A stretch of 64,000 nucleotides of DNA from Gossypium raimondii. Taxonomy: Eukaryota; Streptophyta; Magnoliopsida; Malvales; Malvaceae. The position numbers were made by a program, and so were the translations under genes. Where the stretch lies: assembly GCF_025698545.1 (NCBI RefSeq), contig NC_068567.1, positions 55,185,371 through 55,249,370 of the forward strand. Reading direction: 5' to 3'. Below, piece after piece: positions 12,085 through 61,103 of this stretch (position 1 is its first letter; each line of letters opens with the position of its first letter). The notes below the pieces were generated by a model. It did not search any database. It had not been told where the DNA came from and saw only the letters and a list, made by a program, of their open reading frames with translations.

Positions 12085-13030
12085 TAAGGGTTAGGATTTT
12101 TAAGGGTTTAGGGTTAGGGTTTTCAATTTAATTAGGTTTGGATTTTCAATTTAATTAGGTTAGGGTTTAGGGTTTAATTAGGTTAAGGTTTTCTTTTTAA
12201 TTAGGTTAGGTTTTCAATTTAATTAGGCTAGGTTTTCTTTTCAATTTAATTAGGTTAGGGTTTTCTTTTTAATTAGGTTAGGTTTTTCAATTTAATTTGG
12301 CTAGGTTTTCTTTTCAATTTAATTAGGTTAGGGTTTTTAATTTAATTAGGTTAGGGTTTAGGGTTTAATTGGGTTAGGATTTTTAATTTAATTAGGTTAG
12401 GGTTTTCTTTTCAATTTAATTAGGTTAGGGTTTAGGGTTTAATTAGGTTAGAGTTTTTAATTTAATTAGGTTAGGGTTTTCAATTTAATTAGGTTAGGGT
12501 TTAGGGTTTAATTAGGTTAGGGTTTAGGGTTTAATTAGGTTAGGTTTTCTTTTCAATTTAATTAGGTTAGGTTTTTAATTTAATTAGGTTAGGGTTTAAG
12601 GTTTAATTAGGTTAGGATTTTTAATTTAATTAGGCTAGGGTTTTCAATTTAATTAGGTTAGGTTTTCTTTTCAATTTAATTAGGTTAGGGTTTTCAATTT
12701 AATTAGGTTAGGGTTTAGGGTTTAATTAGGTTAGGATTTTTAATTTAATTAGGTTAGGGTTTTAATTTAATTAGGTTAGGGTTAGGTTAGGGTTTTTAAT
12801 TTAATTAGGTTAGGGTTTTCAATTCAATAAGGTTAGGTTTTCTTTTCAATTTAATTAGGTTAGGGTTTTCAATTTAATTAGGTTAGGGTTTTCTTTTCAA
12901 TTTAATTAGGTTAGGGTTTAGGGTTTAATTAAGTTAGGGTTTTCTTTTTAATTAGGTTAGGTTTTAATTTAATTAGGTTAGGGTTTTCAATTTAATTAGA
13001 TTAGGTTTTTTTTCAATTTAATTAGGTTAG
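12083..13030. repeat. Telomere-like minisatellite inside MULE-1
   Basis: About 950 bp of irregular tandem units alternates TTTAATTAGGTTAGGGTTT with spacers TTCAATTTAATT, TTCTTTTCAA and TTTAGGG. Many units contain TTAGGGTTTAGGGTTTA, i.e. two adjacent plant telomere motifs. Unit length varies around 19-24 bp, so this is neither true telomeric sequence nor a simple microsatellite. It separates the convergent transposase and PMD genes. Confidence 0.93.
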
Positions 13031-18090: not shown

Positions 18091-18189
18091 GGTTATTTTA
18101 CCAAACTAGTCCAAAAAATATTATATTTACAAAAATAACTCAGGTTTGAAAACAATCACCAAAATAACCTAAAAGGAACAGTAAAATTT

Positions 18190-18680
18190 AGTTGTGGTCT
18201 GTCAATGGCCGGGACTCACTCGTATTTTGCACCCATGATTGCCTAATAGTTGTGTCAAACTTAAAAAAATTAATTTTTTGGGTTTTGGCCTGTCAATGGC
18301 CGGAACCCAGGTATTTTTTTTTTAAAATTGTATAATACTGATATACGAAAAAAGGAAAAAAGAAAAACGAAAAAAAAATTTTGGGTGTTGGCCTGTCAAT
18401 AGCCGACACCCAGTACAATTTTTTTTTAAAAAAATTCTTTTTTTTTGTGTCAGAATCAGATATAAATATATGAAAAAATAAAAAAAATTTGGGTCTTGAC
18501 ACACAATGGCGGCACCAAAGACAATTTTAAAAATTTTTTTGTGTCAAAATCAAATATAAATATATGAAAAAATAAAAAATTGGGTCTTTGGCACATCAAT
18601 GGTCGACACCAAGACAATTTTAAAAAATCTTTTTTTTTCGTGTCTAAATCAAATATAAATATACTGAAAAAATAAACATA
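18190..18680 (+). repeat. MULE-2 left-arm array of hairpin units (about 5 copies)
   Basis: Copies of GGCCTGTCAATGGCCGG.ACCCA or variants lie near 18196, 18287, 18390, 18498 and 18592, each about 100 bases apart. Most are followed by poly-A/T tracts and a CAGAATCAGATATAAATATA-type segment. The first three belong to the terminal inverted repeat. Confidence 0.88.
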
Positions 18681-19265
18681 ATTATATATAAACAATAACA
18701 CAATGGTAACATATAGAATTTATCAACGGTTATTAGCTCTCTATATAAACATTTTAATAGAACAATTTATGTAAGGTTAGATTAAATTAATGAAAATATG
18801 AAAAAGAAAATTTTGTTCTCAAGAAACATTACATGGAAATATAACTTTTTAATCTTTAAAATTGTATTGCTAAGTGGACATTAATCGAAGATGCAAGAAT
18901 TAAAGAAATAAGATTTAAATTACATCATAGAAATTCGAAAAAATTTAACCTTAATGTATCGAAAAATATGCGCTATTAATCACACAATTATCTAGAAATT
19001 GCAAACATTTAGATTTTGTTCAGATATTAATTGCCTTTTTTTTCTATTTCCTCATATTTACTATTACAAAATTAAAATCCCCCAAGTCCTATATATTTTT
19101 ATTTTTAAGAATTTAGTCCTTATATTTTTAAATATTACGAAGTCATATATTCAAACAAATAATTATGTTAGATTCATTAAATAAATATTAAAAAAAGAAA
19201 AAATGTAAAAATAAAAGAAATATTTACATAATAAATTTTAAGAAAGTAAAAATTAACATAAAAAT

Positions 19266-21147
19266 TTAAAATTGTCGCAATCCTGGGGACGTCCTCGGCG
19301 CTGGCGTGTAACGATCCGGATGCCCCCGTCGGCGATGCCGTGCACCTTGCTGAGGCGTTTGATAATTGCTCGGTCCAGAGTCTTGTGTCCCTTCCGGTGT
19401 AGTTAAAAAGGTGGAATAATTATATTCACCATAATCGGGACTTAATTGGTATTGCGTGACCGGAGGTGCCGATGGAAAAATATCCTCAGTGGTGGGTGTA
19501 CGTGCTTCGGGGTGGAAGTCCGGGTGGTATGAGAATGACGATCCGGATCGTGTCGGATGTTGACGGTGGAGGTTGTCACCGAAAAAATCTTCAAATGATG
19601 GAGGAACTTCATGCACTGGATCCGGATCTATGAACTGTGATGATGAGTCGGATGCTTCATTTTCGGCCCCCAGTTCGGCCCCGAATGGCGGAACTCGGTT
19701 ACTACGCGGTTGGGCGTTCCTTGCTTGCCATCGCGAAGAATCAGGTCGCGCGTCTCTTTGGATCAGCATGTACTGACCCTGGAATATGAACGGTTTCCCA
19801 TGTGCCATATACCATACTGCGTACTCGGGCGTAGGAGAGAACCCTCCCTCTAAGACATACAAGGGAGGGCGCCTCAAATGTCGCTGATTCCACAGAAAGA
19901 TATATGGTTCATGTTTCTATGCCCAATTTAAAGAGTCCCGACTCGGTCCCTTTTTATCCGTTCCGTGGACATCTGAGATGTCAACGGGAGGGTTCGGGAT
20001 AGGCTGTGCGCAACCGAATTGCCTCAAAACCCGACCTCCATCGTGCCACTCCACCATATGAAAATTAATCAACGGCACATTAGACACGAACACGTGTTGC
20101 TGCTCGACCACCCATGACGGTATGAGTGCCGCGAGATCTTCCTGAGTATATAGCATCCATATAAACAGCAAAATAAAGACAACACGTTACTCTGTATTTT
20201 TATTTATATTTAAAACATTATATTTGGAATCATAATTTACGCCATCGCCGGAATGAGTCTCTATCATCATACGGTACACAGGTAGCGATTGAGATCGTCC
20301 AATTCCCGGTACAGTTGCCCATCTAAAAAAAAGAAATTATCAAATTATTTTTCTCATGCAAAAAATAATGAATATTTATTATAGTATAAAAAAATAGATG
20401 GCAAAATTTAACTACATATTTACCTATAACAAATGGCCAGACATAGGGTTGATGGCCCACTGATGCAAGAAATGGCATTCGGTATAATGCCCAAGACTGC
20501 AGTAGAAGGCAGCAACCGCCCATTGTTTTGGTAGTCAGCGTTGTCGCTCGACAAAGCTCACGGTATAAGCCTGCCAACACTGCCGAGCCCTAACTAAATC
20601 TTCCAGCATGCTCGAGGTCCTCTAACAAGGGGAGATACATTATCGAGATTTTATTTTGATTGACCTCAGGCAAAAGTATCCCACCTATAAGTTGCAGAAT
20701 GAACGCTCTTGCAGCGTACATAATGTCCATCTGCGTTGGACTGCTCGGAAGATGCTCGAACTTTTCTTTCAACCAACTAAATTTAATATATGTTAAACGT
20801 TCATCCTCGTTGCTCGGGGGCATCCTTCCAAGTAACCGCTCGCAAGTGCCCCACGGATCGCGTACTTTTCCAAGCTCGGTCACTGCTTCTCCATTAATAG
20901 ACAGCCCTAGTTGGACTGCTACGTCTTGCAGCGTAATGCTTACATCCCCACATGGGAGGTGGAATGTATGTGTCTTCGAGCGCCATCTTTCAACTAATGC
21001 CGATATTAAATCGGCCCGGAGCTCAGATGTTTGAATGTACGCGGCAACCCCAAAACCCGCGACATTCAAATACGGTATAACTCTTTGGTCAGGAAAATAA
21101 CCGACCAAAAAAGAATTTTTTTTAATATTGTACTGGGTGTCGCCCAT
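19266..21147 (-). pseudogene. PMD gene in MULE-2, decayed and N-terminally altered
   Basis: Read on the minus strand, 21147-20590 gives the PMD core (ALVERWRSKTHTFHLPCGD, VQLGLSINGEAVTE, AFILQLIGGILLPE). The next piece continues with YRELCRATT and LLLQSWALYRMPF to about 20430, then an exon near 20322-20237, then 20171-19917 (YTQEDLAALIPSW, GGRVLRQFGCAQPIPNPP) and 19916-19266 (PEYAVWYMAHGKPFIFQG and a Pro/Ser-rich tail). Lesions are TAG in place of the Trp codon after GRFS (near 20600), a probable one-base loss at the following donor, an acceptor reading TG instead of AG before YTQED, and TAG at 19917-19919. The apparent start ATG at 21147 lies inside a repeat-array unit, so the original 5' exon appears to have been lost or replaced. 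Confidence 0.88.
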
Positions 21148-21960
21148 TGATGCACCAAAGACTCAAAAATTTTTTATTTTTTCAGATATTTATATCTCGA
21201 TTCGACACGAAAAAATTTTTAAATTAGATCTTGGTGCCGCCATTGAAAGGCCAGCACCCAAATTTTTTTAATTTTTTTTGTATATTTATATCTGATTCTG
21301 ACACGAAAAAAAAAAGAATTTTTTTTTAAATTGTACTGGGTGCCGGCAGCACCCAAATTTTTTTTTTATTTTTTTCGTATATTTATATCTGATTCTGACA
21401 AGAAAATTTTTTTTTTAATTGTACTAGGTGCCGGCCATTGATAGGCCAGCACCCAAATTTTTTTTATTTTTTTCGTATACTGATATTTGATTCTGACATG
21501 AAAAAAAAAATTTTAATATTGTACTGGGTGTCGGCCATTGACAGGCCAGCACCAAATTTTTTTTATTTTTTTCGTATATTTATATCTGATTCTGACACGA
21601 AAAAAAAGAATTTTTTTTTTAAAATTGTACTGGGTGCCGGCCATTGGCAAGCCAGCACCAAATTTTTTTTTTATTTTTTTCGTATATTTATATCTGATTC
21701 TGACATGAAAAAAAAGAAAAAAAAATTTAAAAATTGTACTGGGTGCCGACCATTGACAGGCCAACACCCAAAATATTTTTTTCGTTTTTCTTTTTTTTTT
21801 TCTTTTTTCGTATATCAGTAGTATACAATTTAAAAAAATACCCGGGTTCCGGCCATTGACAAGCCAAAACCCAAAAAATTAATTTTTTTAAGTCTGACAC
21901 AATTATTAGACAATCATGGGTGCAAAATACGAGTAGGTTCCGGCCATTGACAGGCCACAA
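21130..21960 (-). repeat. MULE-2 right-arm array of hairpin units (about 9 copies)
   Basis: Units of roughly 100-108 bp start near 21137, 21228, 21333, 21425, 21524, 21630, 21738, 21845 and 21933. The typical core is GGGTGCCGGCC, ATTGACA, GGCCAGCACCC, i.e. an 11-base arm, a 7-base loop and a near-complementary arm. Poly-T, TTCGTATATTTATATCTG and ATTCTGACACG follow, then poly-A. Orientation is opposite to the left-arm copies. Unit boundaries were placed by eye. Confidence 0.9.
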
Positions 21961-22379
21961 CCCAATTTTACTGTTACTTTTAAGTTATTTTGGTGATTGT
22001 TTTTAAACCTGGGTTATTTTTATAAATATAATATTTTTTGGACTAGTTTGGTAAAATGGCCCTTAAAATGATTAATTAATTTAATAATTTGTGATTTAAA
22101 CCAAATGATTATATAATTATATTTTATTTTTAAGATGACCTTTTATTTTGTTATTTGTTTGCCTTCAAACGAATTACAAATACGAGAAAAGGTACCACTT
22201 TATTTGCAAGGCGGACCACTTTGTCTGTTCTAAAACCTCGGGAATTGTGTAATTTACGTATCTTATTTATATCTTTATTCTAAAAACAATTACTTTTTAA
22301 AAATGCCATTAATTTGTTGGGTATACTACAGAATTGATCATCCAATTTTCATAAATTTTTATTTGGACATAAAAATTTT

Positions 22380-26785: not shown

Positions 26786-27759
26786 AGGATAAAGCACAAG
26801 AATAGTCATCACTCATTTAGTTGGTTCTATTTTGAACCTCCAACTATAATTTCTTTTATGTAATCACTTAATTTTTGAAATTTAATATTTTAGTCACTCT
26901 TATCATTAACTTAGTTGTTCAATGCTTACACAATCTATCAATTTGATCCTAAATCTAAAAGAATTAAACAAATTTAACTTTCAATGCTTATAAAATTTTA
27001 TAAAATATATTAAAATAATTTTATATTTACTTTTAAAATTTTAAAATTTATATTTGCTTTCTTTTTTGTATAACTTATTTTTACTTTTCTCATAAACAAT
27101 GCTTATTTTCTCATCAACCAAACATACGAAAAACCTAGAAATTAAAGTTATTTTTATTTAATCTCTTTTGATTTAGTCCCTTTTATTTTGCTATATTATT
27201 TGTCTCAAATGTCTAATTAAAAACAAGAAAGATGCTTAAAATTAACAAATTTATAAACCCAAAAAAATGGTTGGGGTTGACGACATCAGCACTAATGGCC
27301 TTATTCTTAGTGCCTTATTCTTTGCTACAGAGATAGTACCGGTTAGACTTTAGTGCTCTCGTGCCTTTATCATTTCTAGCTCAAACGTTGGAGAGAGATT
27401 GTAGGTCATGGTTATAACATTTGATATTTCTAGCTTCTTCAATTAAATGAAAGAAAGAACAAAGTGAAAGATAATCTGGAAAGTCGTTTTGGGTACAAAT
27501 CTTAAAAATATTTTTAGATTTACTTTTTAAAAATTTTAAAAATTACATTTATTTTTAAAAAAATTTAAGATTTTTTTTATAACACTCCTAACCCTTATCC
27601 GTCACTGGAACAAGGTTATGGAGCATTATCGGGCTTTACGGATTAAATACGAATATTTCACAATATTTAATAAACATATCTGAAACCAATCATAAATTAC
27701 TCACATTGTCCCTTTTATGAGCCTTTGAGGCCCAAAATATGCATTTGAAATAAATCAGG

Positions 27760-30700
27760 TGTAATACCCTGAAAATTACTACAGTAAGAAAGTAAGGTAT
27801 TATCCTTAATATAGTTAAGTAAGGAAATAAAGTGACAAAAAGGGAAATTTTGAGTTATGTCAACATTAGGAAGTATATTATGATATATTAATTCAAGAAA
27901 TGACTAAATCGCAAAAGTAAGAAAAGTTTTGTGGCCCAAGAGTAAACACTCAAAATTTGAAGGGTTAAAGTGTAAATATGAAAAAGTTGAAGGACCAATA
28001 GTGCAAATATTTTAAGGGTGGAATGATCTAGAAACTAAGGAAAATGGATGAATTAAGACCAAATTGAATAGGTGAAAAATTATGAGGGACTAAATCATAA
28101 TTTTACCAAATTAAGTGATGACTGAAGGATAGAATTTTAAAAGATCATAAAGGACAAAATGGTCAATTAGAAAGAGAGAACTCTAAAAGGCAATGATGAT
28201 GTTAGAGATATTTTGATGATATTTTATAATTATTTAATTAGATAAATATTATTTTATTAATATTTTAATAAAATATTTTATTAATATTTTATTTAGTATA
28301 TAAGGAAAGAAAGATGAAGAATTCTCTTCATCTTTCCATGCACCCATGTTAGAAGAGAAGAGAAGAAAGAAAATTTCTTTTCTTTACAATTTGGTTCTTT
28401 TACCAAAAATTCACCATTTTCACTTAGAAATCAAAAGAATTTCCATAGTTGCCAAAAGAGTAAAATAATAAGGAGACTATGGGGAGTTACAATATCAAGT
28501 TAGATTCAAGAAATAGAAGCTGAAGGAGAGAGAAAATCAAGTTAAAGATTGAAATCAATAGAATAAGGTAAGAACATCAAGATTTTAATATATTTTTAAG
28601 TTTGATATTATTGAAAAAGCATGAAAATGGTGTTAAAGTAGAGTTTTATTATATAAGATTCTATGTTCTTGATATGTTAGCGAAGGGAAATAAGAGGAAG
28701 TGATAGGAAATATTGTAGAGAAAGGAAATGAGGGTGTTATAAAGTTAGTTATCAACATTTTACACTAAAACAGTTTTGGACAGTAGCAATAGTCTGCCTT
28801 TGAAAATTTACCAAAAATTGTAAAAATTGAATTAGAGGTTAAGTAAAGTATTAAATTAAATCCTATTGAGTCTAGTTTTACATACAAGAAACGTTGAAGC
28901 AAAAAAATTCATATTATGAGATATATGAATTTTGTGAGACAATGTTAGATTGATTTTGGGTTCCCTATTCGACTTTAGAAAATCATCAAAATTGTAAAAA
29001 ATAATTATAGGTTTAAATTTATATTTTAAATTATTAATGAGTATATTTTCAAGAGAAACAAATAGAAACATCATCCAAATTTCGTACTAAGAGATAATTA
29101 TTTTTAGTAAAGAAAGGTCGAAGCTGTTAAACAACGAGTAACAGAGATAAATTTGAAGATTTTACTGTACTTATTGGCTAAATATTAAATTCTAAAATTT
29201 TTATGGTAAAAATATATTTGAGTCTAGTTTCAAAAATATCAAGCGGATCTTAATTTAGAATTCTGTAGCTCAAGATATAAATAATTTAGTGACTATGACT
29301 TAAGTGGACAGCTTTGATATGAATATAAGTAAATAGTGAAATTATAGATAATATTACATATAAGCATGTTATATACATTAAGGATGTGGAATGGAGAGGA
29401 GGAGGAGGAAAATATATGAATATTCAGCTAGCATGGGTTTACATTAAAAATGGCTAATTTGCATGTTTTAGGCTCAGGGGCTAAATTGAATAAAAGTAAA
29501 ATTTTAAGGGTAATTTTGTAAAATGTAAAAATGACCAAATTGTATGAAATGAATTATTTTATTGTCTAAATTAATATATATTGAAAGAAATTATTAATAT
29601 CAAGTGTGTTTAGAGCTTTAATTTTGTTGTATGATGATATTATAAAGTGATTTTGTAAATATTAATGTTAGTATCAAGTTGTGAAAATAGTTAAAATATT
29701 AGGGTTTGGTATTAAATTTATATTTTATTAAGGGTTGTATGATAGCCTAGAATATTTGGATAAATTATTAATTGAGAAAAATTAGTTGAGTTGATAGATT
29801 TATTAGTTAAGAGACTAAATTGTAAAAGTTGAAAAAGTCAGTAATTGTGTAAATTTGAAAAGTTGAAGGGTATAAAATGTGAAATAAATTGAAACTGAAA
29901 TATATGCTAATGAATGAGTAATTTTGTATTTTAGATTAAGAATCCGTAGTTACTTGTAAAAAGGAAAAATAATGGAATAGTCCCTAAACTCCTGCAATTA
30001 TTACAATTCAATTCAGATAAGTTCATATGTTTAAACTTTCATGATTATATGTTAATTTAGGAATGGTATAATATATTTATTCCTATTTTTTTGTTGAAAT
30101 TAAGATTATTGTAAAAGTATGAAAATTGAATTGAATGTTTAAAATGAGTAGAACGCGGGATTAAGTACGAGCGTTCCGTGGCAAAGAATGAATTGACGGA
30201 TAAGACCATGGTTGGACCATGGAAATGTTTAACTGTAAGACCATGGTTGAGCTGTGGCATTTTAATGAAAAGACCATAACTGGGTTATGACACTATGAAC
30301 GTAAGACCATGGTTGAACCATGAGAGTGTTTATATGTAAGACCATAACTGGGCTATGACATTCTGATCATAAGACCATAACTGGGCTATGGCACTATGAA
30401 CGTAAGACCATGGTTGGACCATGGTAATTTTTATATGTAAGACCATAGCTGGGCTATGGCATTCTAATAATAAGACCATAACTGGGTTATGGCACTACGA
30501 ATGTAAAGGATGAATTGACGGAAAATGTAAAGGATGATATATGAAGAAACAGTAAAAGATGATATGTATCATGAAATGTGTATATATATTAATATATTGA
30601 TATGTGATACATGAAAATTATGTAAGTTGAGACGAGTATAAATTCAAGTGTGACATGTTGAGATAATAAGTTTATCAATGTTGAATTTATATTAAATATG

Positions 30701-31873
30701 TTCAAGTATGCTAACAAATGTTGTTGTTGATACTTAGACAAGTTCCAAGCTATTGGTTAAATGGTAATATATTTATTTGTATGATGCGTTAAAACGGAAG
30801 TGCTCAAATGAAAATATGTTTGTACTCATGAAAGAGTGATAAGTTTTAAGTTATGCAATTTCTTATGAAATGGTTTATCATGTGATTAATTTTAAAAAGG
30901 GCTATGTTCAAATGCATTAGCTTATGGTTATGGTGGTATGGCATGTTTATGACTGGTAAGTTATGCATATGGAATGAGTGGGGAAAGTAAAGAAATGCAA
31001 ATGAAAACTTAGAAATTTGGAATAGTTAAAGTTGTTGAATATACTTTATGAATATTGGGGCATCAATATTGGATTATTATGGATATGTATAAATTTCTTA
31101 TTTAAAATGAATTGATATGATTAAAGTTTATACGAGCCTACTAAGCACTCATTGCTTACGTAATTATTTTCCTTTACTTTTCAGATTATCAAAAGCTCGA
31201 TTAGGTTGGAAGCTTGTTGGAGATATATCACACTATCCATTGGTTCTATTGGTATTTTTGAATGTTTTAATTTTAGTCATAATGGTATGTATATGTATTT
31301 TGTTTAATGTTGGTTTTTATGTAAATTGTTGACATTAGCCACTTATTTTAGCTTGTGTTGAATGCCATGTTATAGTTTGTAGATTTGTGAATTGGTGGGG
31401 CTAGGTTAGTAACAAATTGGGTGAGAAATATGGCTTGAAATGATCTATTTTCGTCCACACGGGCAAAGACACGGCCGTGTGTCTCAACCGTGTGTGACAC
31501 ATGGCTAGGTGACACGGTCGTGTATCCCTTGTATCTTAAATTTGAACAAAACAGAATACCGACACGACCTGAGACACGGACGTGTCTCCAAACCGTGTGA
31601 GTCACATGGCCTGGCCACACGGCCATGTGACACCTGCAATGTTGAAAATTTTAAATATTTTTTGAAATTTTTTTTGACTCTTCAATTTAGTCCCTATTTG
31701 TTTCTAATACAAAATTTGGGCCTCGAGGGCTCGTTTAAGGGACAATATGTATGATTTTTATTGGTTTCTAATATGAATGTTAGATGAAATGAAATGTCTG
31801 ATAATTAATTTGTAAACTCCAGTAATGCTTCGTAACCCTATTCCGGCGACAGATTCGGGTTAGAGGTGTTACA
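27760..31873 (+). mobile_element. Solo LTR B (gypsy-type), 4.1 kb, nested in LTR A
   Basis: It begins TGTAATACCCTGAAAATT and ends TCGGGTTAGAGGTGTTACA. LTR A sequence stops at 27759 and resumes at 31874 (GCATTTGAAATAAATCAGG, then TTGGGACTTAACCGG). The flanking 5-mers TCAGG and TTGGG are each one CpG transition from TCGGG. TATATAAGG at about 28298 followed by a pyrimidine-rich CTTCATCTTTCCATG supports plus orientation. There is no gag or pol. Short frames inside (for example 31117-31332) have no domain. Confidence 0.8.
30201..30505 (+). repeat. Array of 9 short hairpin units (32-35 bp) in solo LTR B
   Basis: Units start with (T)AAGACCAT at about 30201, 30236, 30268, 30302, 30337, 30370, 30403, 30438 and 30471. 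The core is a 7-base arm, a TGG loop and a complementary arm. Examples are CCATGGT-TGG-ACCATGG, CCATAAC-TGG-GTTATGG and CCATAGC-TGG-GCTATGG. Arms differ between units yet stay paired; several units carry one or two mismatches. It starts about 25 bases after a GAACGC...GCGTTC stem (30151-30176). Confidence 0.9.
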
Positions 31874-32215
31874 TTGGGACTTAACCGGAAACTCAGAAAA
31901 TTTATCCCAAAATTTCAAAAATTTTCTTAGGAGCAGGGGACACATGCCCGTGTGAGTAGGAGACACGCCTGTGTCGTAGGCCATGTGGGCATTCGATGTG
32001 AAGCATATGGTCGTGTCCCAGCCCGTGTCCATACCCGTGTAACTCTTTAACTTGGGTCACACAGCTAACCACATGCCCGTGTGCTAGGCCATGTGCAAAA
32101 ACCTGGGCATTCTATTTCAAAATTTTAAGATGCATGGGACACACGGCCGGATCACATGCCCATATGCAAGGCCGTGTGTCACACACTGCTGAGACACACG
32201 CCCGTGTCTCTACTT
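31445..32215. repeat. Clusters of CACACGGCCGTGTG-type palindromes in both solo LTRs
   Basis: In LTR B (about 31455-31630) and again in LTR A (about 31934-32215) the sequence is packed with ACACGGCCGTGTG, GACACGGTCGTG, CACGCCTGTGTC, CACGCCCGTGTC and related near-palindromes, in an otherwise AT-rich setting. The clusters sit in the same 3' part of each LTR and face each other across the 31873/31874 junction. Confidence 0.85.
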
Positions 32216-32893
32216 GTGTAGATGAAAATAGGCCATTTTAAGGCCACTTTTCTCACCCATTTTGATATCAACCTATACACAACATTTTAATACCTCAATA
32301 CATCCCAAGCAAGCAATCAACACAAACAAAAATCATGTTTTAAGTATGATATAACATCACAAATACTCAATTACTTAAACTTACCTATTCAACCTATTTC
32401 ATTGAATTATCAAAATCCACTACTAATCACATTCAAACATGTATCATTCACAGCCACATTTCAAAATATATTTCATTTTTAATTCAACCCTATACATGCC
32501 ATATAAACCAAAGTATACGTTGCAAAAGCTACCGGATTAAGTTGGATAGTGTGACTTGATGTGTTGATCCGATCTTCCGACCTCACGTTAATCTACAAGG
32601 ACATTAAACAACACAAGTAAGCTTAAGGAAGCTTAGTAAGTTCAATGGTTTTAAACATAAATCTTACCGAACATTGAACATACTATAACCAAATCAAGTA
32701 AGTAAATCATTCAAATTACATTTCTTGCCAATCACAACTTCAATTTATGAATTCACTTATTTCACATCAATTCTATCAATAACTTTAAATCTTTTTATAT
32801 CAATTTCATATGTCACTTACCATCCCTTACCAAATCGAAAAACGTCTTATGGATATGAGTACATCGTATACAGAAGACCAAAGGCTGCACAGA

Positions 32894-33011
32894 AGCACAT
32901 AAGTGCTAAACAGAAACCCGTAAAGGTTGAACGGAAGCTCATAAGAGCTAAACAGAAACCCAATAGGGTTAAACTAAAACTCATATGAGTTAACTGAAGC
33001 TCATAAGAGCT
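32894..33011. repeat. Array of 6 hairpin units with 21-bp period in solo LTR A
   Basis: Arms begin at 32894, 32915, 32936, 32957, 32978 and 32998. The units are AGCAC-ATAA-GTGCT, AACC(C)-GTAAA-GGTT, AGCTC-ATAA-GAGCT, AACCC-AATA-GGGTT, AACTC-ATAT-GAGTT and AGCTC-ATAA-GAGCT. Each has a 4-5-base arm, a loop of mostly 4 bases and a complementary arm, with spacers near AAACAGA. Four different arm sequences all remain paired. A GAACG...CGTTC stem lies at 33097-33122 on the upstream side in LTR orientation. Confidence 0.92.
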
Positions 33012-34757
33012 AAACGGAAAGCAAACACGAAAGTTCGTAACAAATGCTAAACCTCAATTTACTTGGGTAATTTTCCGTTAATTCCTCCTTTGCATAGAAC
33101 GACTGTACTCAATCTCGCGTTCCACTTTACCTGGATACTCATTCCAATTCATAATACAACAATATTTCATTTTAATTCAATAATATATTAAGTACATAAT
33201 AAATTTAAAAACATTCCATTTTCAATAATATATTAAATACGTAACATCATTTATCAATTTCCATATAATTATTAAACTTTAATCATATGAACTTACCCGA
33301 GGTAAATTTGTAAATTTGGTAGCAATTTAAGGACTATTCTCGCCAATTTCCTTTTTACGATTATTTATAGGCTCTTGATCTAAAATATAAAATTATTTAT
33401 TCATTAGCACATATTTCAGTTTCAATTCACTTCACAATTAATACCCTCAATTTTCAAAATTACACTATTACCCTAATTTTTACAACTTTTGCAATTTAGT
33501 TCCTTATTAATTTGTCCATCAAATGAACTATTTTTTCTCAATTGATAATTTATCTAAATGTTATAAGCTATAATACAACCCTTGATCAATATAATTTAAT
33601 ACCAAACCCTAATATTTAATCTTTCCATAATTTGGTCTTAAAATCAATATCTATCAAAATCACTTGATAAAATCATCATACAACAAAATTAAAGCTCTAA
33701 ATCTATGTTAATTCATAAAAACATCCAATATTCATTAATGGTAGCTTTCAAGATTACCCATAAAATCAAAAACTAATGAAATAGATAATTGGACCTAATT
33801 GTAAAAGCCTCAAAAACATAAATTTACAAGAAATAAGCAAGAATTGAACTCACTTGAAGTAAAAATATGAAAAACCAGCTTAAGGAGCTCTACTATGGCT
33901 TAAGATTGATGAAGAAATGTCTAGATTTTCAATTTAGTCTTTGTTTTAATTTTTATCTTAATTCCCAAATGACCATTTTGCCCCTAAGTCATCAAATTTC
34001 AAGATTTTTTCCTGCACATGCCGTCTCAACCTTCTAATAAGTGTTTAATTTTCTTTTTGGTCCTCCCTTATTTAGCACTTAAACTATTTAATCACTACTT
34101 CTTTAATTAACAAGTTTTACACCTTTTTCAATTTAGTTCTTTTTATTTAATTAACTATCAAAGCGTTAAAATTTTCTAACGAAACTTTAATACCACCTTA
34201 ATGACACTCTTTAAATATTTATAAAAATATTTATAGCTCTGTTTATAAAATTGAGGTCTCGATACCTCATTTTTTAAATCACATAACTTAATAATTTCTT
34301 ATAACATACTAATTACTATTTCAAAAATTCTCCTAAAATCACATTTGGCTCGGAAGTACTATTAATAAAATTCACGAGCTTCCTTATCGAATTTGGTGGT
34401 CTCGAACCACTGTTTCCAACGCCACTGAAAATCGAGCTGTTACATTTTTAATTTTTTATAAATTTATAATTAGGACTAAAATGACAAATCTTGTAAACAT
34501 TGAGAGCTAAATTTGTTGGTTTTTTTAGATTTAAGATTAAATTGATTGTATATGAAAGTATTAGAGGGAAAATTTATTATTAGGCTAATAAAACAAAGCT
34601 CACGTTAGAATTATGTTAGATAATTAATGGAAGAATGATTAAAATATTTAACTTTGAAAAGTTGAGTGATTGAAACAAAAAAATAAAATAATAATTGAGT
34701 AACCAAAATAGAATGAATTAAATAATTGGATGACTATTCTTATACTTTATCCTATGG

Positions 34758-41219: not shown

Positions 41220-43770
41220 TGTAAATACCCGATTTTGCCCGGGTCTAAAAGGCTCGAATTACAAGCAGGCCTGTATGGCCTAATTAATAAGACAAAAATA
41301 CATGGCCCAATAATGACCCAAATACAGTGGCCCAAAATAAAGGAAGAAACCCTAGGGTTTCTATGGAGTTCATCAGCGCCGTAGCCCGTTCGCGCTGCAG
41401 CCAAGAGCCGAATCTTCACCTGCAAGGAAAAAAAGAAACAAACAGTATATGGAAAGCAAAATCGAAGATTTGCAAATCAAATCAATACAAGCAGATTCGT
41501 TTCTTCATATATTTTGAGAATGGCTATAAAAAGCCATTAAACATATTGTAATAGGAAGAAAAGCAATAAAAAAACACGAGTATTTTCACAAACAACAGAA
41601 TACCAAGAGTGCACAAAATCTATCAAGAAATCAAAAGGTTGATATTTTAGCATCGTCCTCTTCTATATTTTCTTTTATTTTTTTATTTTTTAATTTGCTA
41701 AAATACAATAAAACAAAAAGGAAAGAACTTACTTTCGCTTACCTCCGAACGCTGCTGGGACTGGCCGATGTTCGCTTCGAGACGACAGTTAGAAGCCGAA
41801 AGGTTTCTAGATTTTTTGAGGGTGCTTTTGTCGGTTTTTGGAAAATTTAAACCCAGATTTGGGCTCAGGGGCTTTGAAAGGTTTGAATAGGAGATTTTCT
41901 CCTTTTTCGCCATCAGATCATGGTGCTGCCACGCCGAGATCGTGGCCGTGGCGGTGGCGGTGACCGGCAAATGACCTGCCCCAATCAAGAAACAATGAGA
42001 GTTTTTGAAAGGATTTTGGTTTTTTTTTTTTAAATGGTTTGAAGTGATTTTTTTTGGAAGAATAGGGGCATATATAGGGTACCAAAACGGTACCGTTTTG
42101 GAGAGCCCCCAGACGCCCAAAACGGCGTCGTTTTGGGGAGGCCGGCCCGAATACGACCCGACCCGGCCTAGGATCCGCATGTTTTTAAGCGGAGGGGTAA
42201 ATTGTGCTTTTAGCCCCTCTGCCTTTTAATATTTTTGCAATTAAGTTTATTTTGTTTTTTAAATTCGCTTTTAATTTATTTAAAATTTCAAATTGGTCCC
42301 TATTGAACGACGCCGTTTAAAGGGAAAGGGAAAATTTCCATTCCATTCCCTCCATGATTATATGCGCGTTCAATACAGTCCTTTGGGATTTATTTATTTG
42401 CGGATTTACCCCAGATTTGTCACCTACAATTCAATTTAGTTTTTTATTTTATTTTATTTCATTTTTTAATTAATCTCAATAATGTAATTATTATTATTAT
42501 TTTTATATGTAACTATTTTTTGATCCATATATATGTGTATTTATTTTTCTTTTATGTACATTTTTCTCTTATATATATACGTATTTATTTTTTATTAATT
42601 TGATTTTTTATATATTTGTATATGTGTACGTGTGTATATATTTATATTTTTAACGAATGTTTTTTACATTTATATATATAAATGTGTATATTTTTCTTTT
42701 TTAAAAATGCTCATATATTTTTAACACATGTTTTATACGTTTATATTTTTCTTTACATTATATATTTTGTTATATAATTTTATAATCCAAAGTTTTATAA
42801 ATCACATGTATATTTTAATCTTCATAATTTTTATGTGTATACTATATACCTTCTTTTCTTTATTTATTTTGCTTGCTTTCTTCATTCGCTATTTAATTGT
42901 GTTACATTTATATTCTTTATTTATTTGATATTTTTGCATGTCATGGATTATTTTTTTACATATTCATTTCGTTTATTTATTTTATATTATTTATATGCCA
43001 TTGTTGTACTTGTTATTGTGACATTCATACATACAATATAACATTACGTCATCTTTTACTCGAATTTAAAAATAGAGTTTTTCAAAATAGAGATAATACT
43101 CATATTTAGGATTTTCAAGAAAATTGAGCCCTAACGTATTGGGTTCCGATTTTCTTCGTAAAATCTAACAATCGAGGATTGCTCTTTAATCAAACAAAAT
43201 AAAACTTGTCATCGGGAATTCAATATGTTGTGTCCTAACGTGTTGGATGTGACACGTTAATTTCTCGAGACAAAGATTTTTTAAAAAATAAAGGAAATAT
43301 TGAATGTTTGGGATTTTAGGAAATTGTGTCTTAACGTATTGGGCTGCGATTTCTTCATAAATTTTAAACAATTAGATTTTCTTAAATTTTATTACACGAG
43401 TTTTTTGGACTAACTCATCTTGAAGAGAATAAAATGTTGTGCCCTAACGTATTGTGTGTGATGTTTTTCTTTTTTTAAATGAGGAAGTCTTAATAAATAA
43501 TTTAATTTAATTAAGGATCACATTTTTTTAACTCTCGACTTTAAGACATTAATTAATCAATTTGGTACCAATTTTTGGGCGTTACGAGGGTGCTAATCCT
43601 TCCTCGTACGTAACTGACTCCCGAATCCGTTTTTCTGAAACTTGTAGACTAAAGTCGTTTTTTTAGGTGATCCAATCACACCTTAATAAAAGATTGGTGG
43701 CAACTCCCAATTTTTGGTTTTTTTTAAAGTCGACAACTAAATTTTTGTTTTCAGAAAAATGGTTTCGACA
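41220..43770 (+). repeat. 5' LTR of the Tat/Ogre-like element
   Basis: 2,551 bp, TGTAAATACCC to GGTTTCGACA. A TATA box (CTATAAAAAGCC) is at about 41524. Near the end are four spaced CCTAACGTATTGGG-like words (43131, 43235, 43331, 43444), a GTTACGAGG...CCTCGTACGTAAC stem and an AATAAAAG poly(A)-type signal near 43686. Small frames inside have no domain. Confidence 0.95.
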
Positions 43771-56462: not shown

Positions 56463-57673
56463 ATGGATTGTAAAAACTTACCGAATCTTGTAAATTCAGA
56501 TTCAGTCAAGAAATATTTCACTTGAAGGAAAAGAAGGAATCAAAGTGAAAACCCGCAAAAGGCGCTTTGAATAAAAAAAAAAGGAGAGGCCAAGGTGAAA
56601 ACCCGCAAAGAGCGCCTTTAGACCAAAGGGGATTTGAGTTGAAAACCCAAAAAGGGCAGCTCAAACATTGATCAGATTGGGGCATATGGTGATCTTGCTA
56701 TACCTAAATCAATAGGGAAAGGGTATGCGACATCTTAGGGCATCGGCAATGTACTGTAGATCTTCTAAACATATGTTAAATTCAAAATGGTCATTAGTTT
56801 GTACGGAGAAGTTCAAGCTGTGATATCCAAAGCACCTAGCCTTCATATTACTTGTACCGAATTTGTTTGTTCTTGTAATACTTCATTCTTTGTTGTTCTT
56901 GAATATCTTTTTCTTTTCAAGAAACTAGCTCTCAATAAATTCCTTTTCTTTTATTCATATTTGATAATTCATTTCCGGGTCAGTATTATCTTGATGTGAG
57001 CATGTTGCGTTAGAATAATGATTAATGGACTAATAAACTTTCACAAAGGAAGTTTTGAATATTACTCTGGAAGATTCTAAATAATACAGTAACCTGAAAC
57101 AGGTCTATTGTTTAGAACACGTCAAGTTTAAAATTTTGTCGAGATATCTTGTTGGTGACAAAGTTTTAATCACCAATGGATAAGAAGAATTTCCCTTTAA
57201 GAAAGAAAATTTTTCGTTTATGCAAGATAATTGGGTATGACAGCCTGGGAATGGTGTAAAAGACCAAAAGAAATTTCGCATGCTGTATCCTTGAATTGTG
57301 ATAGCAGAGGATTGAGAAAAGGGACAGATCTTTTTACCTTTGAGTTACAACGAAAGAAAAATGGTACCAATTTTGTATCCCAGTGGATCGAACCTCGAGG
57401 TTTATAGTGGGGGCAATATGACTAAGTGTTTCTTTGAAAACACCAACTGAATAGGAAGGCGTGGTAGCACGTCAGTGATAAAGCCTTAATAAAATTCGAA
57501 CAATGATAACCTAAGTGATAAATAAGGAACATTCTCACAAAAAAATAAGCATTCTACACTCATGCAAACACTATTCACACATGTCTGATTAAGAGCATTT
57601 GATGCATTTTGATCATGCTATCCTCATCTTAGGCATAATTGGGTTCATTATAATGGTCATGTTTCACAGATAG
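56463..57673 (+). other. 3' non-coding region of the gypsy element
   Basis: Near 56545-56665 three copies of GTGAAAACCCGCAAA or TTGAAAACCCAAAAAGGG lie about 50 bases apart. The rest has no open frame with a domain and leads to the 44-bp repeat array. Confidence 0.6.
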
Positions 57674-58116
57674 CAGATCCTGTCTTTCTATATTGGTAGC
57701 GAAGTGAATCGAATATGCAGATCTTGTCTTCCCATATTGGTGGCGAAGTAGATTGAAGAAAGCAGATCTTGTCTTCATGTCTTGGCGTGAAGTAGATCGA
57801 AGATAACAGATTCTGTCTTCCTATATTGGTAGTGAAGTGGATCGAAGATGCAGATCTTGTCTTCCCATACTAGTGGCAAAGTAGATCGAAGAAAGCAGAT
57901 CTTGTCTTCATGTATTGTCATGAAGTGGATCGAAGATAACAGATCCTGTCTTCCTATATTGGTAGCGAAGTGGATCGAAGATGCATATCTTGTCTTCCCA
58001 TATTGGTGGCGGAGTAGATCGAAGAAAGCATATCTTGTCTTCATGTATTGGCGTAAAGTGGATCGAAAATAGTAGATCCTGTCTTCTTATATTGGCAGTG
58101 AGGCAGATTGAGTAAG
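57674..58116 (+). repeat. 44-45 bp tandem array with a 133-bp higher-order period
   Basis: Units begin CAGATC(T/C)TGTCTTC or a close form at 57674, 57718, 57763, 57807, 57851, 57896, 57940, 57984, 58029 and 58073. Spacings are 44, 45, 44, repeated, giving exact 133-bp steps 57674, 57807, 57940, 58073. Within each trimer the units differ in a fixed way (CTATATTGGTAGCGAAG, CCATATTGGTGGCGAAG, ATGTATTGGCGTGAAG). More diverged copies continue to about 58440. Confidence 0.93.
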
Positions 58117-58550: not shown

Positions 58551-61103
58551 TGTAAATACCCAATTTTGCCCGGGTCTAAAAGGCCTGAATTACAAGCAGG
58601 CCTGTATGGCCTAATTAATAAGACAAAAATACATAGCCCAATAATGACCCAAATACAGTGGCCCAAAACAAAGGAAGAAACCCTAAGGTTTCTATGGAGT
58701 TCATCAGCGTCGTAGCCCGTTCGTGCCGCAGCCAAGAGCCGAATCTTCACCTGCAAGGAAAAAAAGAAACAAACAATATATAGAAAGCAAAATCGAAGAT
58801 TTGCAAATCAAATCAATACAAGCAGATTCGTTTCTTCATATATTTTGAGAATGGCTATAAAAAGCCATTAAACATATTGTAATAGGAAGAAAAGCAATAA
58901 AAAAAAACACGAGTATTTTCACAAACAACAGAATACCAAGAGTGCACAAAATCTATCAAGAAATCAAAAGGTTGATATTTTAGCATCGTCCTCTTCTATA
59001 TTTTCTTTTCTTTTTTTATTTTTTACTTTGCTAAAATACAATAAAACAAAAAGGAAAGAACTTACTTTCGCTTACCTCCAGAACACCGTTGGCATGGTCG
59101 AGGTTCGTCTCCGAGGACAGACGGTTAGAAGCCGAAAGGTTTCTAGGTTTTTTGATGGTGCTTTTGTCGTTTTTTGGAAAATTTAAACCCAGATTTGGGC
59201 TCAGAGGCTTCAAAAGGTTTTAATAGGAGATTTTCTCCTTTTTCGGCCACCGCATGAAGCGGTGCTTGAGATCTCGAGATCGGCGGTGGCGCGGTGGCGG
59301 TGTGGACCGATGACCGTGCCTGGCCGGAGAACAGGGGGCTGAGAGTTTTTTGAAAGGATTTTGGTTTTTTTTTTTAAAAAAATGGTTTGAAGTGATTTTT
59401 TTTGGAAGAATAGGGGCTTATATAGGGTACTAAAACGGTACCGTTTTGGAGAGCCCCCAGACGCCCAAAACGGCGTCGTTTTGGGGAGGCCGACCCAAAT
59501 CCGACCCGACCCGGCCTAGGATCCGCGTGTTTTGAGTGGAGGGGTAAATTGCGCTTTTAGCCCTTCCGCCTTTTAATATTTTTGCAATTAAGTTTATTTT
59601 ATTTTTTTAAATTCGCTTTTAATTTATTTTAAATTTCAAATTGGTCCCTATTGAATGATGCTGTTTAGATGGAAAGGGAAAATTTCCATTCCAGTCCCTC
59701 CATGATTATATGCGCGTTCAATACAGTCCTTTAGGATTTATTTATTTGCGGATTTACCCCAGATTTGTCACCTACAGTTCAATTTAGTTTTTTTTATTTT
59801 ATTTCATTTTTTAATTAATCTCAATAATTTAATTATTTTTTTATATGTAATTATTTTTTTATCCATATATATGTGTACTTATTTTTCTTTTATGTACATT
59901 TTTCTCTTATATATATATACGTATTTATTTTTATTAATTTTGATTTTTTATATATTTGTATATATGTACGTGTGTATATATTTATATTTTTTAACGAATG
60001 TTTTTTTACATTTATATATATAAATGTGTATATTTATTCTTTTTTAAAATGCTCAAATACATATATTTTTAACACATGTTTTATACGTTTATATTTTTCT
60101 TTGCATTATATATTTAGTTATATAATTTTTATAATCCAAAGTTTTATAAATCACATGTATATTTTAATCTTCATAATTTTTATGTGTTTGCTTTCTTCAT
60201 TTATTTTGCTTGCTTTTTTCATTCGCTATTTAATTGTGTTTACATTTATATTCTTTATTTAATTGATATTTTGCATGTCATGGATTATTTTTTATATATT
60301 CATTTCGTTTATTTATTTTATATTATTTATATGCCATTGTTGTACTTATTATTGTGACATTCATACATACAATATAACATTACGTCATCTTTTTACTCGA
60401 ATTTAAAAATAGAGTTTTTCAAAATAGATAATACTCATATTTAGGATTTTCAAGAAAATTGAGCCCTAACGTATTGGGTTCCGATTTTCTTCGTAAAATC
60501 TAACAATCGAGGATTGCTCTTTAATCAAACAAAATAAAACTTGTCATCGGGAATTCAATATGTTGTGTCCTAACATATTAAATGGGACACGTTGATTTCT
60601 CGAGACAAAGATTTTTTAAAAAATAAAGGAAATATTGAATGTTTGGGATTTTAGGAAATTGTGCACTAACGTATTGGGCTGCGATTTCTTCATAAATTTT
60701 AAACAATCAGATTTTCTTAAATTTTATTACACAAGTTTTTTGGACTAACTCATCTTGAAGAGAATAAAATGTTGTGCCCTAACGCATTGGGTGTGATGTT
60801 TTTCTTTTTTTAAATGAGAAAGTCTTAATAAATAATTTAATTTAATTAAGGATCACATTTTTTTAACTCTTGACTTTAAGACATTAATTAATCAATTTGG
60901 TACCAATTTTTGGGCGTTACGAGGGTGCTAATTCTTCCTCGTACGTAACTGACTCCCGAATCCGTTTTTCTGAAACTTGTAGACCAAAGTCATTTTTTTA
61001 GGTGATTCAATCACACCTTAATAAAAGATTGGTGGCGACTCCCAATTTTTATTTTTTTAAAGTCGACAACTAAATTTTTGTTTTCAGAAAAATGGTTTCG
61101 ACA
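58551..61103 (+). repeat. 3' LTR of the Tat/Ogre-like element
   Basis: 2,553 bp, the direct copy of 41220-43770, with the same ends, TATA box and CCTAACGTATTGGG words. It is followed by GACAT at 61104-61108. Confidence 0.95.

Follow-up and report, generated by a model that had tools for sequence, protein, structure and literature searches.

Two LTRs within the window (the whole stretch of DNA that was analysed, 64,000 nt) each carry a row of small hairpins beside a similar stem, and the question raised by this locus is whether a hairpin module is kept there while its sequence is replaced, as a first-pass annotation had proposed. The six units that it placed in LTR A at 20–21 bp are present (Table 1). 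They are 14-nt units with 5-bp arms and a 4-nt loop, five of them perfect and the second with one mismatch, spaced at 21, 21, 21, 21 and 20 bp. With perfect hairpins defined by an arm of at least 5, a loop of 3–6 and at least two G/C, five lay within 135 bp at this array, against 2–4 reached by 20 first-order Markov sequences of window length. The array had been said to follow a GAACG...CGTTC stem in both LTRs; stem and array were confirmed in both, but the strands needed correction, and it is in the sense direction that the stem precedes the array in each. With up to three mismatches allowed, the stem pattern had no third match in the 64-kb window and none in 100 shuffles. The two arrays had also been described as unrelated in unit length, arms and loop, which is true of this pair alone, as some relatives carry both modules in a row.

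Table 1. Features of the two LTRs in the window. Strand is given by sense; a slash marks a putative exon-intron border.
Feature	Position	Strand	Details
LTR A, main part	31874..34444	(-)	sense 5' end near 34444
LTR A, remaining sense 3' end	27580..27759	(-)	severed by LTR B
LTR B	~27760..31873	(+)	~4.1 kb, solo; left edge good to ~20 nt; ends ...GGTGTTACA at 31873
Putative intron 1 of LTR A	33380..33853	(-)	474 nt; CTTCAA/GTGAGTTC ... TTTTAG/ATCAAGAG
Putative exon 2 of LTR A	33297..33379	(-)	83 nt
Putative intron 2 of LTR A	32593..33296	(-)	704 nt, holds array; CGG/GTAAGT ... TTGTAG/ATTAACG
LTR B counterpart of intron 2	30017..31184	(+)	donor decayed (CAG/ATAAGT); acceptor TTTACTTTTCAG
Anchor stem GAACG...CGTTC of LTR A	33097..33122	(-)	before array in sense
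21-bp hairpin array (A-type), six units	32894..33011	(-)	covariation in relatives
A-type unit	32894..32907	(-)	AGCAC-ATAA-GTGCT
A-type unit	32915..32928	(-)	AACCC-GTAA-AGGTT, one mismatch
A-type unit	32936..32949	(-)	
A-type unit	32957..32970	(-)	
A-type unit	32978..32991	(-)	
A-type unit	32998..33011	(-)	
Decayed further A unit	32875..32886	(-)	AGCC-CGAA-GGCT in relatives
Second anchor	32841..32867	(-)	AACGTCTTATGGATATGAGTACATCGT in antisense letters; after array in sense
Hairpin before intron 2 acceptor	32618..32635	(-)	TAAGCTT-CCTT-AAGCTTA; found by motif search
Anchor stem GAACG...CGTTC of LTR B	30151..30176	(+)	before array in sense
33-bp hairpin array (B-type) of LTR B	30206..30492	(+)	CCAT-NNN-TGG-NNN-ATGG, NNN paired

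Relatives were drawn from the 750.8-Mb genome (281 contigs) that contains the window. The main part of LTR A is 78% identical over ~2 kb to the LTRs of a single element, L101/L102, whose own LTRs (2,868 and 2,802 nt) are 89% alike. Its severed 3' remnant matches the end of the L101 LTR at 83% over 160 nt and L102 at 79% over 180 nt; LTR B is a solo LTR nested in LTR A. In L101, RVP_2, RVT_1, RT_RNaseH, Integrase_H2C2 and SH3_Tf2-1 matches follow one another in order, as five separate pieces on one strand. Because these PR/RT/RH/INT pieces lie opposite to the strand used in the first-pass annotation, the sense of LTR A is minus and that of LTR B plus. As judged from this domain order, the host element is a Ty3/gypsy chromovirus. 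The match to a chromodomain after the integrase is weak (PF00385, 36 residues, E 0.0044, 17.3 bits against a cut-off of 25.1). Beside the L101 5' LTR, TTGTATCAGAGC was read by eye and may be a tRNA-Met primer site. The group is probably Tekay-like.

Other repeats were seen in the window. At 12112-13030 an interstitial block holds ~38 copies of a 23-bp unit containing GGTTAGGGTTT, a telomere-like motif. An inverted repeat at 18095-22057 has 226-nt arms that are 93% complementary, and within each end lie tandem arrays of ~94–108 bp; it resembles a DNA transposon or a foldback element. The segments 41220-43369 and 58551-60704 form a direct repeat pair ~17.3 kb apart (pieces 77–99% alike), probably the LTRs of another, longer element, and a 44/133-bp tandem array at 57668-58095 stands directly before the second copy.

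The arrays were then followed through related LTRs. Loci L001-L030 came from a query over 32870-33130 (937 candidates, 40 scored, 30 used) and L031-L100 from the exact anchor pattern (70 of 121 places used). Once duplicates among the 100 loci were removed, 94 distinct segments that contain both anchors remained, all chosen by the array or its anchor. As L001-L030 were picked by similarity to the array, its conservation in the A-family alignment is inflated; the splice donor described below lies outside that query. A first unit tokeniser, which allowed two substitutions, proved too loose and was replaced by a stricter one. By the strict patterns, A-type (21-bp) units alone were present in 47 segments and B-type (33-bp) units alone in 29; a further 10 segments had both kinds and 8 had none of either. 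Units failing these patterns went uncounted, and both modules occur in at least 10 of the 94. All ten double-module segments have the modules in one order. Replacement of one array by the other at the same place was therefore rejected: the two modules are neighbours, and LTR A and LTR B each have the look of a shortened form of the same two-module region. Of the idea that structure is kept while sequence is replaced, the first half survives, in that pairing is kept as stem letters change (see below), but the second does not.

Perfect hairpins averaged 4.55 per segment, compared with 0.57 in dinucleotide shuffles, and every one of the 94 segments had at least one, although in 15 the count was no higher than the best of 20 shuffles. 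A structure-conserved hairpin module is thus typical of this LTR group, as had been suggested.

A test for conserved hairpins with free sequence had also been proposed, and such hairpins were found. Among 307 A units, the Watson-Crick fraction was 0.943 in register and 0.088–0.294 when the arms were slid by 1–3. Pair 1 is set by the search pattern, which also allows R...Y letters alone at pairs 2 and 5; the cleaner tests are therefore pair 4 and the three varying pairs of the B/C units. Pair 4, which the pattern leaves free, was paired in 290/307 units (129 after shuffling) and pair 2 in 294/307 (153 after shuffling), these being the two pairs that vary. There are four family states (AGCTC, AACCC, AACTC and AGCAC, with their complements); the 229 perfect units all belong to one of them, and a newly compensated state was found neither there nor among the 78 mutated units. 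As changes after insertion are uncompensated, pairing is kept in propagating elements, with resident or dead copies decaying. Adjacent A units were of the same type in 2 of 219 cases (52.8 expected at random), which a higher-order repeat would also give. The B/C units were recognised from the sequence that precedes them, with C or T required at the first two arm positions. The 146 units so obtained, from 48 sources, had 6.16 of 7 pairs in register against 0.82–2.23 slid. Seven perfectly paired inner stems (AAC, GGT, AGC, AGT, GGC, ATC and GTC) account for 105/146 units, and the loop is TGG in 105/146.

Pairing beyond the controls was thus observed in both A and B/C units. Copy number varies between arrays, and copy-number variation is common in LTR tandem repeats, as would be expected if chance hairpins had arisen by ordinary drift of tandem repeats in a fast-evolving LTR region; the slid and shuffled controls exclude chance pairing, however, and make such drift extremely improbable.

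The position of the array within the LTR proved informative. It is flanked by two sites that resemble splice sites: a perfect donor, AG/GTAAGTTCGTATG, and an acceptor, AG/ATT, at which a TACTAAGC hairpin is followed by a U-rich (polyT) tract and then AG. The putative intron borders read AG/GTAAGT at the donor, decayed to AT in LTR B, and TAG or CAG before /ATT at the acceptor. The donor motif GGTAAGTTCGTATG has 2,269 exact copies in the genome, compared with 21 for its reversed control. With up to two changes, the donor GGTAAGTTCGTAT was found in 73 of 99 anchor loci (61 at 122–176 nt and 12 at 575–1,181 nt before the anchor stem, in sense); where at least 1,000 nt of upstream sequence was available, it was found in 54 of 59 loci. 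In the A-family alignment the donor block ranks 36th of 2,701 nine-base windows, among the best conserved outside the query. A loose acceptor pattern (TACTAAGC, a T-rich stretch, then TAG or CAG before ATT) matched 86 loci, some of them spuriously. From this anatomy and the intron-less copies described below, the array is very probably part of a leader intron of the LTR, with which splicing would remove it. Were the leader spliced, unspliced RNA alone would carry the hairpins.

A further putative intron lies upstream in sense. The start of exon 2 could be recognised in 31 loci. Of these, 28 (27 distinct) have the acceptor block of intron 1, and in L007, L030 and L045 intron 1 is missing at the same point, as it is in L126 (see below). 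Candidate TATA boxes upstream of the array lay scattered, and the TTTTATATTTTAG block, which is conserved, is better read as the intron 1 acceptor.

Copies that have lost the array-bearing intron were sought with an exon-join pattern. It had five matches, of which four were examined (L124-L127; the fifth is on C10) and one, L126, is real. L125 and its 97.7% copy L127 belong to another repeat, and L124 is T-rich sequence that by eye is unlike the LTR. As the reversed join pattern has 72 matches, a count of such matches proves nothing by itself. L126, from which precisely the segment between donor and acceptor is gone, joins CCCAG/ATTATCG (...ACAATTTAACCCAG/ATTATCGTGAGG...) with ~650–730 nt missing, and both sides, read in letters, match other copies in which they lie ~650–730 nt apart. 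The L126 join region, in which exon 3 begins at position 98, was then used as a query. Among the best 40 scored of 943 candidates, five, including L126, span the join (at 79–100% identity and with lengths that differ by a net 0 to 11 nt), whereas 34 start at query 95–98 and one ends at 97; L126 was read in letters and the other four spanning places are known from contiguous alignment alone. Two of the spanning places (G000:C8:48710105 and C8:48716926) lie 6.8 kb apart in the same direction, compared with a spacing of 7.6 kb for L010/L016, and are probably one element with both LTRs missing intron 2. The spacing fits an intron-shortened LTR pair, which would mean that spliced RNA had gone through a complete cycle and that the intron is part of the transcribed leader. 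As intron-less copies exist, spliced RNA can also be reverse transcribed, so that any exclusion of it would not be absolute.

These introns bear on the function of the arrays. The reading that we favour, tentatively and at just short of an even chance, is that the hairpins form a structured RNA module in the 5' leader that acts in cis as a tag of full-length, unspliced RNA. A different role within the same intron would be the control of splicing itself: the hairpins would shorten the effective intron, hide cryptic sites or slow splicing, and so set the ratio of spliced to unspliced RNA with no role in packaging or export. The placement of the array between donor and acceptor would suit this, as would the further hairpin directly before the acceptor and the fact that the intron is missing in only 5 of the best 40 places, though the query favoured intron-less ones. 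Intron length and unit number, however, differ widely among families in which the splice sites are kept, and we consider control of splicing rather unlikely.

Related LTRs were also surveyed independently of the array, through the donor alone (L103-L123, the first 21 loci in genome order of the 2,269 donor matches). The sample includes LTR families with quite different leader sequence and the same donor. The survey that the first-pass annotation had called for gave a divided result: a recognisable array was present in 13 of the 21 loci (three A-type, L110, L111 and L116; five C-type, L103, L114, L115, L117 and L118; five D-type, L109, L113, L120, L122 and L123), but none was seen in the other eight (L104-L108, L112, L119 and L121) within the 0.5 kb scanned for hairpins, or up to 1.2 kb for the TGG-loop type. 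The C-type and D-type calls were made partly by eye and include many imperfect units; D-type units (AGCTC-GTGT-GAGC and variants) were read by eye and are mostly imperfect. The acceptor block was present in 12 of the 21 loci within the stretch examined, and in L117 the AG itself is altered. In the putative intron of nine of these loci, which belong to more distant LTR families (L103, L109, L113, L114, L117, L118, L120, L122 and L123), we observed AATGA-CATG-TCATT or AATGT-CATG-ACATT, perfect palindromes that differ from each other by a paired double transversion.

The hairpin before the intron 2 acceptor varies in a similar manner. The variant TAAGCTA-CATT-TAGCTTA is found in L010, L026 and L027, and with a further change in L016, L017 and L022, so that both arms have changed in that one subfamily (TAAGCTT to TAAGCTA). 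Paired changes of this kind could have a mutational origin, with template switching at quasi-palindromes, either as DNA is replicated or as hairpin RNA is reverse transcribed, copying one arm to the other and giving covariation without function. The mechanism is documented and can make paired double changes, as described in the available part of the source (PMC8794818). Three apparent double transversions keep pairing here (AGCTC/AGCAC, TAAGCTT/TAAGCTA and AATGA/AATGT around CATG), and the four A-type masters include no G.T state, both as template switching would predict. It would also be expected to invert loops, and inverted loops are nearly absent: TTAT, the inverse of ATAA, occurs in 0/307 A units and CCA in 0/146 B/C units, and among the ten commonest A loops, self-complementary ATAT aside, an inverted form was seen once (CTAT). 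The loops of A units vary, and the loop strand is kept in A and B/C units alike. The absence of new compensated states in the 78 mutated A units argues that switching is not ongoing in resident copies, and paired units recur in LTRs that have otherwise diverged. A mutational origin is, on this evidence, unlikely.

To compare RNA with DNA as the selected form, both strands were folded and mismatches were counted by type. Folding z-scores were -4.1 for sense and -4.4 for antisense (40 segments). Sense folds were lower in 38/40 segments, by a mean of 10.4 kcal/mol, which, given the alike z-scores, reflects composition. Sense mismatches in A units were balanced between G.T and A.C (40 vs 39); in B/C units the three varying pairs gave 28 G.T vs 8 A.C and pair 1 gave 3 vs 19, a bias that methylation context could explain in part. 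The alike z-scores and the 40:39 ratio thus give no sign of sense RNA over DNA as the selected form. An Rfam search of 27500-34600 returned one match, under its gathering score and outside the array, and no covarying stem emerged when 420 nt on the sense-downstream side were scanned for covariation, with 95 loci brought into a forced alignment. The like signal on both strands is what DNA-level dyads would give, each unit being a palindromic protein site or cruciform in an enhancer or insulator with two-turn (21 bp) spacing, and the perfect dyads and 20–21 bp spacing of the A array agree with this. The half-sites of B/C units, however, change together through seven inner stems, unlike a protein site of fixed letters, the spacing is ~33 bp in B and wider in C (by eye), which are not whole turns, and the position within an intron would then be a coincidence. 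We regard DNA-level dyads as very unlikely.

Returning to the hairpins as a tag of unspliced RNA, transcription would start upstream of the donor and acceptor sites, and the leader would be spliced in part of the RNA, so that only unspliced RNA would keep the hairpins. The loops of the row would be offered to Gag or to an RNA-binding protein of the host, and the unspliced RNA would thereby be exported, kept from splicing and/or packaged, the spliced RNA serving as mRNA. Recognition by such a protein would depend on the shape of the hairpin, its loop and the linker, leaving the stem letters free to drift as long as they pair; the constant loop strand and free stems fit a shape-reading partner. 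Beside the strand comparison and the intron-less copies, other observations count against this proposal: the loops of A units vary, the acceptor block shows no special conservation in the A family (rank 1,649 of 2,701), and the eight donor-only loci showed no visible array in the stretch examined. Wider still is the idea, possible but doubtful in our view, that these arrays represent a new class of cis element, in which hairpins of free letter sequence, set in tandem within an LTR intron, mark the unspliced genomic RNA. The stems and the number of units would then turn over fast, with shape, loop strand and splice-site frame kept across diverged LTR families, and the arrays would set, by way of splicing, which RNA is genome and which is mRNA.

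The array first noticed in LTR A is confirmed and belongs to something wider: an abundant group of plant retrotransposons has covarying hairpin arrays in what is very probably a leader intron of the LTR. The intron matters for annotation, as these LTRs may seed spliced non-coding transcripts. The arrays are a natural data set on stems that stay paired while their letters change, with the dead copies as a neutral control. In the available text of a study of BARE, the balance between translation and reverse transcription of retrotransposon transcripts is called a major question (PMC3735527), and a single reporter element could make that balance testable.

Word searches of a library of open-access papers gave no matching description of LTR introns or hairpin arrays of this kind, and several known systems offer a comparison. 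In retroviruses such as HIV-1 and MLV, the psi packaging and dimerisation stem-loops lie downstream of the major splice donor and so occur only in unspliced RNA, which is the RNA that has to be exported from the nucleus and packaged. The cotton LTRs resemble that leader in having a number of small stem-loops that follow a donor, here by DNA anatomy and with the leader RNA presumed. They differ in having up to ~10 alike small hairpins in tandem, with free stem letters, inside the LTR's own intron, and Gag binding is here a proposal only. The probable host group is that of the Tekay (Del) chromoviruses of cotton, which have the same domain order and a tRNA-Met-like primer site such as L101 may have, and for which the available parts of the two papers describe no LTR feature of the array or intron kind (PMC12557855, PMC6317226); the searchable text of the first uses the word "intron" once and contains neither "hairpin" nor "tandem repeat" (PMC12557855).

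Plant LTR elements are generally without introns, with few exceptions, according to the accessible part of a review (PMC12786077). As far as the available texts describe them, Ogre, EVADE and BARE1 likewise have retroelement RNA that is spliced by the host into spliced and unspliced pools, and their introns, 104 nt long in BARE1, serve subgenomic or Gag mRNA (PMC12786077, PMC3735527). In contrast, the LTRs described here have two putative introns in a non-coding leader, one of them holding hairpin arrays. Export of unspliced RNA offers another parallel: Cer1 requires a special protein for it, in the portion of that work available (PMC10309623), and the RNA transport elements of mouse IAP and MusD (RTE and MTE), as summarised in the accessible part of the review, act through RBM15 binding or a pseudoknot/kissing-loop fold (PMC12786077). 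Like these, the cotton arrays would give unspliced retroelement RNA a structured element in cis, of possible use for export; unlike them, they consist of repeats of one small hairpin within a putative LTR intron, with a putative role in export.
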